NCBI RefSeq assembly: GCF_033473495.1
Contig: NC_088941.1
Span: 1,302,001-1,366,000, forward strand
Length of the DNA stretch: 64,000 nucleotides
From: Cercospora beticola
Taxonomy: Eukaryota > Ascomycota > Dothideomycetes > Mycosphaerellales > Mycosphaerellaceae
Direction: 5' to 3'
The position numbers and the translations under genes were made by a program. Below are positions 3,809 to 64,000 of this stretch, in pieces. The notes beneath the pieces are model-generated. The model was not told the origin of the DNA. It worked only from the letters and a program-made list of their open reading frames with translations, and made no database searches. Numbering within the stretch: the first letter of the stretch is position 1; every line of letters begins with the position of its first letter.

Positions 3809-4363
3809 TCATCCCGCGTTGCTGTCTGTGTCTCTCCTGGCAGCCGACCTCCTCTTCGGTGGAAGGCCCGCGATCTTTTTCAAGTACTTCCACTCGTTCT
3901 CACCCTTCTTTTCTGGTTTGGGACTCGCTGGTTCTGGTTGAAGCTCGCCATTTTCATCATCGACTTGCTCATCAACCTCACCCTGCACGTCCTTCTCTGC
4001 GCTTGCGTTCTCCTTTCCCCTCTTTTCATCGGCAGCCCTTTTCGCCTCCTCCTTCTGCTTCTGCTCCTGACGACTCCTCTCCCTGAAAAATTCACCATCT
4101 TGCTCGTCTTCGGTTTCTCCTCCAGCTCGCCAGAATTCGGTTGTGTCTACTTGTTCCACGTCGCGAGGGTTCACGAATCTGTACGGTGCGTTGCTGGAAG
4201 CGCTGGGTTGAAGTGTTGGTCTTGGAAGCCCAGTGCTGTTGAGATTTGCGAGGCGTTCTTTGTTGATTTTGGCGAGAGCTTCTTGGATGGAGAGGGACGG
4301 TGGTTTGGGGGCATTGTTGTCTCTGGGATTTTGAGAGGGAGGGGGAGGGTTGGAACGGGACAT
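3809..4363 (-). CDS. Hypothetical disordered, charged protein
   Basis: Not recognised. The open frame extends upstream to 4438 but only from a GTG; the first ATG is at 4363, giving 184 residues. The product is Pro/Ser-rich at the N-terminus, then has a possible helix (IQEALAKINKERLANLN), a short segment with Trp (TTEFWRAG), a Glu/Lys/Arg-rich probable coiled coil, and a Lys/Arg-rich tail containing EWKYLKKIAGLPPKRR. The composition suggests a nuclear or RNA-associated protein, but that is inference only. It is convergent with the RdRP gene, whose stop is 190 nt away. An additional 5' exon within the repeat block upstream cannot be excluded. Confidence 0.6.
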   Translation of the reverse strand: MSRSNPPPPSQNPRDNNAPKPPSLSIQEALAKINKERLANLNSTGLPRPTLQPSASSNAPYRFVNPRDVEQVDTTEFWRAGGETEDEQDGEFFRERSRQEQKQKEEAKRAADEKRGKENASAEKDVQGEVDEQVDDENGELQPEPASPKPEKKGENEWKYLKKIAGLPPKRRSAARRDTDSNAG

Positions 4364-4479: not shown

Positions 4480-5460
4480 CTGTGGTTATATCTATTGGCT
4501 ACGTAGAGTGAATGGAATTGGAGAAAGAGCTAGCACGAGAGTAGACTACAATCACATGTGAGGGGTTCTAGAAAGGCAAGCAGTGCGTTCTTACAACACT
4601 AGTGAACCGTTTCTGCCAGATGATGCTAGTGAAAGCCATTACGTGCTGGTGTTCTGTGGGCTTGCGGAGGGGATCGGTGTTGTCAAAGGAAGGAATTGGT
4701 GTCGGAAGAAGGAGTTGGCGTGGAAGGGAGAGATTGGCATTCCGTTTCTTGTAGAGGACAGTAGCTGAAATGCATTGTAACTTTGGACCCAGTGGCTTCG
4801 CACAGTGAACTGCAAGCAGAGAAAGCAAAATATCCTCCAGAATAGAGTTGCCAAAATGGACCTCCTGGTTACCTCCATTTGGCATTGTAGAGTAAATTGA
4901 AATTAGAGATAGGCAGAAAAATGAGCTTTCTGTGGCAGAAAGAAGTAGTTATGTAGGAGCTCTTGTCGTCCTTCATTGGCTTCGATGACAAGATTGAAAT
5001 TGGAGAAAGTTAGGGACGTAAATTGTCTCCAGCAGAAGGAAGCAGCCCGATTGGAGATCGTGTTCACTCTCGTTGGCGTCAACGCAGTAATTGGAGCTAG
5101 ATAAGGAGCATAAGCAAGACCATGGCTGTTCGGGAGGTGTTGCCACGCCGGGAAGATATGGGGAAGGGAGAGTGTCTTCAATAGCAGCAAGTAAATGGAC
5201 TGGAGCTCGGTTTTGCGTTCGTTGCCGTGGCAGAGTGAATTGAATCAGAGAGAGGCTAGCACAGCGACTGTCTCCAGTAGCTGATTATGGCTGAGCTGCG
5301 TATCGTGTTAATTCTTTTTGGCTACGCAGAGTGCACTGACATCAGAGAGGAGTAGAATTACAGCTCGCCTCCAGCAAGAAAAGGTAGCTGGGTTGCATGT
5401 CGTGTCTGCATCCTTCAGCTTTGCGGGGCCAAGATCATCGGAGAAGAGCGGGTACAGCGA
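4480..5460. repeat. Degenerate 97-bp tandem repeat, left block
   Basis: Diverged copies of a unit recognisable by TTGGCTTCGnAGAGTGAA followed by a GGAGARAG box. Anchor positions (first base of the TTGGC-like motif) are 4495, 4792, 4879, 4976, 5073, 5222, 5318 and 5415. Steps of 97, 97, 96 and 97 occur, broken by steps of 87 and 149 and a three-unit gap with no clear anchor between 4495 and 4792. The block lies upstream of the minus-strand gene ending at 4363. Units share a period, not a reading frame, because 97 is not a multiple of three. Confidence 0.7.
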
Positions 5461-5823
5461 CCAGAGTATCGAGTGTGGACGCAGGTGCCGTAGTCGTCGT
5501 TGTGCGATAGCTGGGTGTCGTCGTGTCGCCTTGAAGTCACTTTGGTGTGAACTTCGCAGTCGTATGCTGTGATGTGCGAAACCACACCTGCTAGAAGCGA
5601 GGTGGGTAGTAACCAGGTGCTACTTGTTCGGACAACGCAGCGGACGAACGACAAGGGGCGGACGAGAGAGAGGCATATGAACATCTGCAGACAAACCAGT
5701 GAGGCGAATGGAATGCCCTGATCTGCACCGCATATCTACACCCAATGGCTCCGTGGGGTGGAAATGATCTGAGACAGGGTCAGCGCAGAGGAAGTCCTGG
5801 CGAGTGGTAGGTATACTTACCTT
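5461..5823. other. Spacer between repeat block and small gene
   Basis: No gene seen. One isolated copy of the 97-bp unit is recognisable around 5705-5790 (anchor near 5745, with a CTGATCTG and ACCGCATAT segment before it). A GTAAGT donor-like site for the minus strand lies at about 5819, just downstream of the stop codon of the gene at 5824-6123. Confidence 0.5.
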
Positions 5824-6123
5824 TCAAACGTGCGTTGCATTCTCTTCTTCGGCAGCCGCTTCTTCTCCGCCGTCATCCTTGGATTGAGCAGCATCTTCAG
5901 CCTCCTGCTGCTGTCGCTTGGCCTCCCGCTCGAGATACTCGGCTTTGCGCTTCATCTTCTCCTCAACATGCTTTGAATCTTTTGCGGCAGGTCTGTTCGT
6001 CATCGCCGATAACGGGTTGTTTTGTGGATTCTCGACGACGATGGAAGAATACTGGGCGTCAGCGGTCCGAGCAATCTTGAGCACTAGCACTACCGAAGGT
6101 ATTTGGCTGTTGGCGCTGTTCAT
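5824..6123 (-). CDS. Small charged coiled-coil protein, hypothetical
   Basis: Not recognised. 99 residues from the ATG at 6123. The first 40 residues are mixed; from an internal Met (MTNRPAAKDSK) onward the protein is a highly charged Lys/Glu/Arg/Gln helix (KHVEEKMKRKAEYLEREAK) ending in an acidic Ala/Glu-rich tail. Coding-like composition and third-position bias support a real gene, whose true start may be the internal Met. The stop TGA is followed within 6 nt by a good minus-strand donor (AAG|GTAAGTAT), so either the transcript has a 3' UTR intron or splicing variants exist. It interrupts the 97-bp repeat array. Confidence 0.55.
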   Translation of the reverse strand: MNSANSQIPSVVLVLKIARTADAQYSSIVVENPQNNPLSAMTNRPAAKDSKHVEEKMKRKAEYLEREAKRQQQEAEDAAQSKDDGGEEAAAEEENATHV

Positions 6124-6164
6124 TGAGAAGCGAACTCCACATGGAATCTTCTCTTCTTTTGGGC

Positions 6165-7025
6165 CCTGTGTGCTGCTTCATAGCTTCTTCACACATGTTG
6201 GCTGCGCAGAGTAAATGTATTCAGAGAAATGCCGAGCAAGGCGGATGACTCCGACAACTTGACTGACCTGAAGTGGCTCGCATGTCGAGATTCATTGGCT
6301 TGAAAGGGTGACTGCACTCGGAGAAAGGGTTGGCAGAGACATCATCTCAAACCAGCGAATCGACCTAAGCTGGGCCGCGTGTTGGTCTTCAGTGGCTTGG
6401 TAGGGCGACGATGATCAGAGTCAGAGCTAGCATTAGGGGTCACTCCGGCGAATGGACTGGGCTGAGCTGGGCTGCGTGTTGATATTCGTTGACTTCGAAG
6501 ATTTATTGGCATCGGAGAAAGGGTTAGCAGAAGGGACGACTCCGGCGGATGAACTGATCTGAGCTGGACCGCGTATTGAGACCCGTTGGCGCGGAAGAGT
6601 AAATGCAATCGGAGAGGGTGATAGCAAATGGCGTCTCTCAGGCAAACGTACTGACCTGAGTTGGGCCGCTTGTTGATATTTGTTGGCTCTGAAGAGTGGA
6701 AGCAATCGGAGAGAGTGGTCGCATATGAGACATCTCAGACAAATGGACTGACGTGGACTGGCCGGCGGGTTGACATTCAGTGGCTTCGAAGGGCGACGCT
6801 GACTGGAGAAAGGCCCAGAGTTGGGTATGTTTCTAGTAAATTTACCGACCTGACGTGGGCAGCTCTTTGATATTCGATAGCTTCGGAGAGTGATTATGAG
6901 CGGAGAAACACCAGCAAAAAGGGTGTCTCGAGCAAATGGACTGACCTGAACTGGACGGCATATTGACATCCATTGGCGAGCAGAGCGAACTGGAATCAGA
7001 GAGAGGGCTAGCACAAAAGGACTTA
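6165..7025. repeat. Degenerate 97-bp tandem repeat, right block (exact register)
   Basis: Nine consecutive units with anchors at 6198, 6295, 6392, 6489, 6586, 6683, 6780, 6877 and 6973: seven successive steps of exactly 97 bp, then 96. Conserved pieces within each unit, in order, are TTGGCTTCGnAGAGTGAA, an AATCGGAGAGAG box, GTTAGCA, CAAATGGACTGACCTGA, and GGACCGCGTATTGATATTC, all with many substitutions. By eye adjacent units agree at roughly two thirds of positions, yet no indel is seen over seven units. A 208-codon minus-strand frame crosses the block but reads the unit in rotating frames and is not considered coding. Confidence 0.85.
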
Positions 7026-7282
7026 GCGAAATTTTTGCATAAGAAGTGAGCGTTTTCATGTAAATTATGAGTCAAACCGTTCCTGCCAAATCCAGCTGGC
7101 CCAGCCAGTTCGGCCTTCACTTCACTTCACCTACCCCGCAACGCCGGTATCAGTTTGCAAAAAGAGGGCTGAAAGTGAAGAATCATGTGCAAATCGTACC
7201 TTCCAATACCATTCTATTTGCCTTCATTTAACCCTCCAGCCACCCAATATCGCCATCACTTCATGCACGTGCCCCTCACTTC

Positions 7283-62269: not shown

Positions 62270-64000
62270 ATGGCGCATCACTACATCAACACGCCGGGCA
62301 CTGAACGAGGGAACGAGACGTTTCTCAGTCCCAGCAAGAATGGCCTCGTGGACATGTCGTTCAACCAGCCTTTCCAGTCGCCCAGTAAAGATGCCGGCCA
62401 GGATATTCGAAGTCGTATGCGAGGACTTCGCGGTGGACCAGGACCAGTATCTGCGCGAACACCGCGACCTCGAACAGCGTTGGTCGACAAGCGCAATCCG
62501 ACGGGCAAGCAGGAATTCACACCGCTCCTCAAGAGCGCGAAACGAAACCAGCTGATGCGACAGAGCATAATGGAGGAGAAGGAGAACACCATAAATGGCG
62601 ACTTGAAAACGCCCGCTGGACTGCGTGAAAGCTTCGGCAGCAGAGCAACGCCTGGCTTACCGATCGAAGCGTCGATGCTGGACGATTTCACTGGTAGTTC
62701 CGGTGATCGCGAGAATACGCCAGTGGCACCTCAAGCAGTCAGCTCATCCATGTACGACTCGACGCCTATGCCGCACCTGCCCACGAACAGGAATGGAGTG
62801 CTCGAGACGGGCAATGTTTTGACTCTACGCGACCAGGAAGCCAAGCTGGACCAGATTCAGAAGGACAACTTTGGTCTGAAGCTGAAGATCCACTACCTCG
62901 AAGATGCAATGCGCAAAAGTGGCACCGAATTCCAGCAGCAGACTTTGAAGGAGAATGTCGAGCTCAAGACAAACAAGGCGCAACTGGAAGTAGATTTAAA
63001 GAAGCAGCGTAAGCGGTTACAAGATGCGGAGCAACAATTAGAGGAATACAAGTTACACCTGCGAGAATATCAAGAGAAGGTCAAGAAGCGACATACGAGT
63101 GAACGCGATCAGGAAGAGTATGAGCGTCTGCAAAGGATGGCCGAGGAGTCGCAGAAGATTGCAGATGAACGGGAGCAAGAGTTGGACCGAGTACGCGAGA
63201 AGCTTGACCAAGCGGAGCAGTTACAGAGCGACGAGAGCGAAGTGCAGCGTCTCAAGGATCAGCTACTCGATGCAGAGCAAGAAGTACGTGACAGGGAACG
63301 TGAGCTGGACGAGAAGGACACAAAGCTTGAAGAGTTGCAAGAGAAGCTGCAAGCGGCTGAACAAATGGAAGGCGATGCAGACAAGATCCAACAACTGCGG
63401 GACGATATTGGTGATCTGGAGGCCGACATTCGAGATCGCGAACGACAGCTCGAAGAGAAGGACGACAAGCTGGAGGAATTGCAGCAGCAGGTCAAAGCGC
63501 TTCAACAAGACAATGCGAACGTGGACCATATGCAGCAGGACATCGACGACATGGAGAACGAGCTCAAAGAGAAGGACGAGGAGTTGGACAGAAAGAATGC
63601 TCGGATCGCTGAACTCGAGGAACGCGTCAATAGTTCGTATGATCGCGAGAAATCGACCAAGAAGCTACGTGGCGATGTTGTTGACCTTGAGAACAAGCTT
63701 CGACAAAAGGATCAAGAGCTTGACGAGTTCAGAGATCAAACACGAGCGTTAGAGAAGCGTCTGCAAACAGCGGAATCCAGCCAAACAGCAGAGCTGCGAC
63801 AAAAGGATAATGAGCTGCGCAACATTCAGCGCGAATTGGCTGACAAGGATGGCGAGATCAAAGCCCTGCAGGAACGACTGCAGACAGCGCGAGGCAGTTG
63901 GGACGCCGAGGCAGAGCAGACCGATGCTCGACTGAGAGAAAAAGACCGCATTATTCAAGAGAAGGAAAGCCAACTACGAGACAAGTCGCGGGTGATTGAG
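62270..64000 (+). CDS. Centrosomin N-terminal motif coiled-coil protein, 3' partial
   Basis: Open from the ATG at 62270 to the right edge (577 codons, no stop), so the 3' part is outside. The first ~180 residues are disordered with Ser/Thr-Pro sites (TERGNETFLSPSK, SPSKDAG). Around residue 183 the Cnn_1N motif begins (LTLRDQEAKLDQIQKDNFGL, then KLKIHYLEDAM), which recruits gamma-tubulin complexes in spindle pole body and septal organising-centre proteins. The rest is an unbroken heptad coiled coil rich in Glu, Lys, Gln and Arg. Candidates are the PcpA or Mto1/ApsB type; the missing C-terminus would decide. Confidence 0.9.
   Translation, partial: MAHHYINTPGTERGNETFLSPSKNGLVDMSFNQPFQSPSKDAGQDIRSRMRGLRGGPGPVSARTPRPRTALVDKRNPTGKQEFTPLLKSAKRNQLMRQSIMEEKENTINGDLKTPAGLRESFGSRATPGLPIEASMLDDFTGSSGDRENTPVAPQAVSSSMYDSTPMPHLPTNRNGVLETGNVLTLRDQEAKLDQIQKDNFGLKLKIHYLEDAMRKSGTEFQQQTLKENVELKTNKAQLEVDLKKQRKRLQDAEQQLEEYKLHLREYQEKVKKRHTSERDQEEYERLQRMAEESQKIADEREQELDRVREKLDQAEQLQSDESEVQRLKDQLLDAEQEVRDRERELDEKDTKLEELQEKLQAAEQMEGDADKIQQLRDDIGDLEADIRDRERQLEEKDDKLEELQQQVKALQQDNANVDHMQQDIDDMENELKEKDEELDRKNARIAELEERVNSSYDREKSTKKLRGDVVDLENKLRQKDQELDEFRDQTRALEKRLQTAESSQTAELRQKDNELRNIQRELADKDGEIKALQERLQTARGSWDAEAEQTDARLREKDRIIQEKESQLRDKSRVIE

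Follow-up and report, generated by a model that had tools for sequence, protein, structure and literature searches.

A 97-bp tandem array with an indel-poor core, probably an old intergenic repeat decaying mainly by substitution

Described repeat systems and the 97-bp locus

Among described systems, those to be compared with the array reported here are minisatellites, satellite DNA, fungal repeats mutated by RIP, and introner-like elements. Textbook minisatellites are more homogeneous and more length-variable than this array; old satellites carry decayed monomers at their edges; RIP is the known fungal example of length-sparing mutation in duplicated DNA; and introner-like elements are units with splice signals that are inserted as introns in genes. 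The titles and abstract openings returned by a literature search for such arrays make no mention of this one, which is a statement about those titles and openings and not about its absence from print.

The array lies about 1.31 Mb along contig 7 (3.00 Mb), within the 64,000-nucleotide stretch that was analyzed (1,302,001-1,366,000 of that contig, hereafter the window; positions given without a prefix are counted from its first base). It shares with a minisatellite, or fungal single-locus tandem repeat, its noncoding units of about 100 bp, laid head to tail at a fixed period on one strand, and its restriction to one intergenic locus, at least as seen by BLAST, which could miss decayed copies. 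It differs in that neighbors in the array are only 53-70% identical, in that the units are related in a star-like manner, and in that turnover has apparently ceased. With satellite DNA it has in common tandem monomers of about 100 bp and decayed copies at the array edge, but satellites form long arrays at many sites, often at centromeres or in subtelomeric regions, whereas BLAST finds no further genome copies of this one, and its extent is only about 2.5 kb, at one locus between coding-like frames. Like RIP-mutated fungal repeats, it is duplicated DNA that is rich in substitutions and poor in indels; unlike them, it has neither a CpA/TpG-directed excess of changes nor a loss of GC. With respect to introner-like elements, the units lie between coding-like frames.

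The genome search behind these comparisons was run with BLAST, which skips common words, on all 36.07 Mb in 10 contigs, with queries taken from the core (a part of it, all of it and a consensus dimer), from the outer block and its insert, and from the open reading frame region. The only match off the locus was a copy of the insert on C3, described below. Since the searches with the core also failed to return the outer units of this very array, they would not detect arrays elsewhere that had decayed as far.

Core and outer block of the array

The tandem repeat of 97 bp claimed in the original prediction was recovered by TRF, by lag identity and by repeat finding without anchors. On the window TRF gave a period of 97 and, under looser scoring, a single array at 6197-7022 with 8.5 copies and 61% matches. 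Over 6180-7025, identity was 0.561 at a lag of 97 and 0.541, 0.526 and 0.539 at lags of 194, 291 and 388, with values of 0.30-0.35 at the next lags. In a periodicity scan of 24 sources (293,702 distinct bases, comprising the window, twenty 10-kb stretches of contigs 1-4 picked by position before inspection, and three others), z for the window was 16.1 (lag 194) and 14.3 (lag 97); comparable values were found in two other stretches, L015 (14.7, lag 96) and L013 (14.6, lag 243). The features of the core are as follows.

6183-7020, plus strand: array core in register, from wrap-around profile alignment, lag identity, repeat finding and profile search
6183-6204 and 6980-7020, plus strand: partial units at the ends of the core, from wrap-around profile alignment
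6205-6883, plus strand: seven full 97-bp units, abutting without a gap
6884-6979, plus strand: eighth core unit, 96 bp, one base short

Where nine units had been predicted, with seven steps of 97 and a last step of 96, the unanchored search returned eight copies with steps of 97, 97, 97, 97, 97, 97 and 96, to which the partial ends must be added. Full units next to each other agree at 53-70% of positions, so that the earlier estimate of about two thirds was slightly generous. Wrap-around profile alignment over 6183-7020 scored 805, against 13.9-18.1 for shuffles (n = 8), and opened a gap of one base near 6908, besides a -1/+1 pair at 6979/6990. When each core unit was aligned to the profile of the remaining seven at four gap costs, units 1-7 were free of gaps at three of the four; the cheapest cost introduced a compensating +1/-1 pair in unit 2 and another in unit 7. 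Unit 8 carried its 1-bp gap at all four costs and, at three of them, a second gap at its end (6978). The sole core run of at least five equal bases, at 6916, lies beside the one deletion in the core. In some units (4887-5400, 6979-6990) shifts of +1 and -1 stand close together and the length stays near 97 bp; such pairs, which two of the outer units carry, may be compensating indels or a matter of how the alignment was chosen.

The array is larger than first noted, in that decayed copies on the same strand reach left to 4502. A profile built from seven core units only detects 5230-5323 (E 3.6e-7), 4502-4547 (E 4.7e-4) and 5702-5750 (E 0.0012), with weak matches at 4993 (E 0.12), 5756 (E 0.13) and 5328 (E 1). 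When the 5229 unit is included in a sequence model as well, 4887-4981 is also detected (E 0.013) and the other outer matches become stronger; this model gives E 6.6e-18 for 5230-5323, which is itself in the model, and 4.4e-6 to 0.013 for the others. Alignment to the 97-bp unit is only weak at 5173-5228. Identity at lag 97 rises to 0.59 around 4900, while other outer steps are off. The outer block and the frame that separates it from the core comprise the following.

4502-5808, plus strand: decayed outer block of the 97-bp array, from sequence-model and profile hits and alignments
4502-4547, 4887-4983, 4984-5080, 5229-5324, 5325-5421, 5702-5751 and 5752-5808, plus strand: outer units and part-units with small indels and phase breaks
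5117-5169, plus strand: insertion of about 51-53 bp within one outer unit, with an 89% identical copy at G000:C3:3127041-3127092
5827-6177, minus strand: coding-like frame between the array blocks, 117 aa from stop to stop, in-frame hexamer score 0.322

The distance from 4984 to 5229 is 245, or 2 x 97 + 51, and this phase break is explained by the insert at 5117-5169. The C3 copy (L012:4542-4593), which shares 52-53 bp at 89%, is the sole off-array match found, and the shared segment is possibly a templated insertion from break repair. As a statement about the array, the claim that spacing is held is not supported, for the outer copies show small indels, an insertion and phase jumps out to 4502.

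The score of the frame at 5827-6177 is to be read against held-out coding pieces, with a median of 0.229, a 5th percentile of -0.098 and a 1st percentile of -0.273. A Pfam search with it returned no match, its best matches in the genome had E 0.105 and 0.632, and its best match to a solved structure had E 0.09. Continuation of the 97-bp units across 5809-6182 was considered and dropped, because neither the core profile (E up to 100) nor the extended model (E up to 5) matched anything there; as far as can be detected, then, the frame is not derived from the repeat. It may have been inserted into the array, or the array may have grown to either side of it. A second coding-like minus-strand frame lies at 3809-4363, and the array is upstream of both. 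About 2 kb to the left of the array, at 1956-2495 on the plus strand, is an RNA-dependent RNA polymerase domain (PF05183, E 2.5e-56), presumably of the RNA-silencing type. Together with the size of the genome and genes that appear to be split, this domain points to a filamentous fungus as the likely source.

The scarcity of indels and its possible explanations

Identity between core units does not fall with their distance apart (0.61, 0.62, 0.61, 0.65, 0.60, 0.56 and 0.67 at distances of one to seven units, the last being one pair). A maximum-likelihood tree of the eight units is star-like, with internal branches making up about 11% of a tree length of 2.21-2.67 substitutions per site. From the flat identities and the star-like tree we infer a single burst of amplification, after which the units decayed independently and neighbors were not continually homogenized. 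The reading that we favor, with a probability of roughly 0.7, is that this is an old noncoding tandem array between genes, made in one local burst, not recopied since, and decaying mainly by substitution. An ordinary old repeat in decay is judged most likely because the outer copies have lost the exact spacing. On this account unequal exchange or replication slippage would have multiplied one 97-bp unit, homogenization would have stopped because the units had become too diverged to pair, and each unit would then have drifted on its own. The register of the core would have been kept because small indels amount to only a few per cent of point changes and the core has few simple runs, and also because the stretch singled out in the original prediction was one that had escaped indels. 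Since every unit replicates one sequence, the array would serve as a small natural record of indel versus substitution rates in intergenic DNA.

Even so, the core is genuinely short of indels: the tree length corresponds to about 214-259 inferred substitutions, against one indel. How unusual this is depends on the yardstick. Compared with the core consensus, the eight core units have 190 differences and 1 gap, while ten outer segments have 249 differences and 10 small gaps, a count that includes the partial units at the core ends (6183-6204 and 6979-7020, with 19 of the 249 differences and 1 of the 10 gaps), omits the 51-53 bp insert together with the larger breaks of phase, and comes from one gap cost, rising as gaps are made cheaper. 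Pooled over outer and core units, gaps amount to 2.5% of differences. Fisher's test of core against outer gaps gives P 0.028, which becomes 0.048 without the end part-units and 0.068 when the core is taken to include them. If the 11 gaps are placed at random, 8.1% of placements leave a stretch of 162 differences free of gaps, and 2.6% leave one of 190. All of these values ignore the fact that the stretch was picked for its regularity.

External ratios give a different impression. PMC4704713 lists indel rates of 0.05e-10 for diploid and 0.2e-10 for haploid S. cerevisiae and 1.74e-10 for S. pombe. For point mutations it gives 1.70e-10 in S. pombe, a rate that it describes as essentially the one of S. 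cerevisiae too, and it places most indels in low-complexity sequence. The indel/substitution ratios that we derive from these figures are about 3% for diploid S. cerevisiae, 12% for haploid S. cerevisiae and 100% for S. pombe. The probability of at most one indel in the core is 0.004-0.012 at a ratio of 3%, below 1e-4 at 6%, and about 1e-8 or less at 10%. Judged by the internal control, then, the deficit is mild, while some external ratios make it strong; the internal control is given more weight because its sequence and neighborhood are the same.

The original prediction took the regular step as a sign that spacing itself may be under constraint. Relative to the outer copies the deficit is mild (Fisher P 0.028-0.068). 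Such a constraint is possible and is not needed: on the favored reading the core register would not require selection on spacing. One form of constraint would be a regulatory or chromatin array in which protein-binding boxes are set at a 97-bp step and selection removes indels, and we regard it as unlikely. Its likely target would be the two minus-strand frames at 3809-4363 and 5827-6177, both of which have the array on their upstream side. Besides the single core indel among so many substitutions and this position upstream of coding-like frames, what mainly keeps it alive is that site rates are unequal in a manner common to core and outer units and that invariant columns are better kept in the latter. 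The fit improves when site rates follow a gamma model (lnL from -731.06 to -724.78), and the outer units match in 106 of 133 cells at columns that do not vary in the core, compared with 255 of 406 at columns with a support of 5-7. Such unequal conservation may stem from mutational context or from some selection. Against a constraint on spacing, the outer copies beside the same two frames carry indels and phase breaks, and the conserved columns cluster only weakly (lag-1 P 0.028; 10-column blocks P 0.11). Moreover, the motif ATTGG (plus strand), which we take to be CCAAT-box-like, is found at its consensus place (columns 89-90) in just two of the eight core units, and elsewhere in one more.

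More doubtful is the notion of an enzymatic or error-prone process by which duplicated DNA gains substitutions but no indels. It would account for a core that is rich in substitutions and nearly free of indels, and it is consistent with G>A being the commonest change (24 of 114 scored, with C>T at 8) and with the gap-free core of the 96-bp array in L015 described below, though the latter may be coding. But the changes do not have the context expected of RIP: C>T occurred at 1 of 16 CpA, 1 of 8 CpG, 3 of 40 CpT and 1 of 8 CpC sites, G>A (for the opposite strand) at 8 of 72 TpG, 6 of 48 GpG and 1 of 40 ApG sites, and transitions stand to transversions at 69:45. At CpA the test has low power, as the consensus retains just 2 CpA sites. 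Nor has GC been lost: its value is 0.521 for the core, 0.503 for the outer block and 0.524 for the window. Hence neither an excess in RIP-like contexts nor a loss of GC is seen in the core, and indels are present in the outer copies.

One long open frame crosses the core.

6433-7071, minus strand: 212-aa open frame through the core, hexamer score -0.204, judged a chance frame

This frame was rejected as a gene for its low hexamer score, which falls below the 5th and above the 1st percentile of the held-out coding pieces, for its departures from consensus, which are highest at the first and not the third codon position (52 of 181, 37 of 181 and 37 of 182), and because a frame of at least 212 aa arises in 10.6% of 2,000 shuffles of unit order. 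In each of its six frames the core scores like off-frame sequence (-0.27 to -0.45), no coding-like open frame runs in step with the period, and 97 is not divisible by three; the original statement that this is not a protein repeat is therefore sound. For RNA, a consensus fold of nine aligned units has six predicted pairs at -1.28 kcal/mol, with no conserved fold; ARAGORN finds no tRNA; and Rfam gives no match in the window at gathering score and, at a lax threshold, two weak ones (E 0.58 and 4.8), both outside the core. Expression of the array, now or formerly, as a repetitive protein or RNA is thus very improbable, even though the 212-aa frame is of a length seen in only 1.7% of 300 dinucleotide shuffles.

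A second array of similar period

The stretch that scored next to the window in the periodicity scan, L015 (C1:100,001-110,000), contains an array of its own.

L015:5118-5414: array of three gap-free 96-bp units, 66-77% identical

Decayed copies extend rightward from these units to about 6177 (G000:C1:105118-106177 overall), and one pair carries gaps. The array was found at one place in the genome only, and it lies downstream of a frame with a bZIP-like end, which we take to resemble a GCN4-type bZIP domain. That its unit belongs to the same family as the 97-bp unit was considered and rejected, since shuffled controls did as well in cyclic alignment (P 0.98 forward, 0.36 reverse). The flank at 5415-6177 scores as non-coding, while the best frame of the core scores 0.031, between coding pieces (median 0.229) and off-frame pieces. 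Because of that score, and because 96 is a multiple of three and an open frame crosses the core, the use of this array as a clean noncoding control was dropped, and it bears on the 97-bp array as a hint and not as a control.

One could suppose, from the two loci together, that the genome carries unrelated single-locus arrays of about 96-97 bp, given their length by one mechanism, with cores whose spacing is spared by mutation or selection; this too we think unlikely. If unrelated arrays of similar length do prove common in the genome, of which the 96-bp array gives no more than a hint, what sets the length of a newborn repeat would become testable by a genome-wide count.

Two further periodic signals were noted in passing. 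At L015:7229-7429, two copies with a period of 102 bp and about 75% matches are coding-like on the minus strand (0.233) and are therefore probably a protein repeat. In the window, a period-144 signal at 63020-63700 (plus strand) sits in an open frame with charged heptad-like sequence, and is thus probably part of an ordinary coiled-coil protein.
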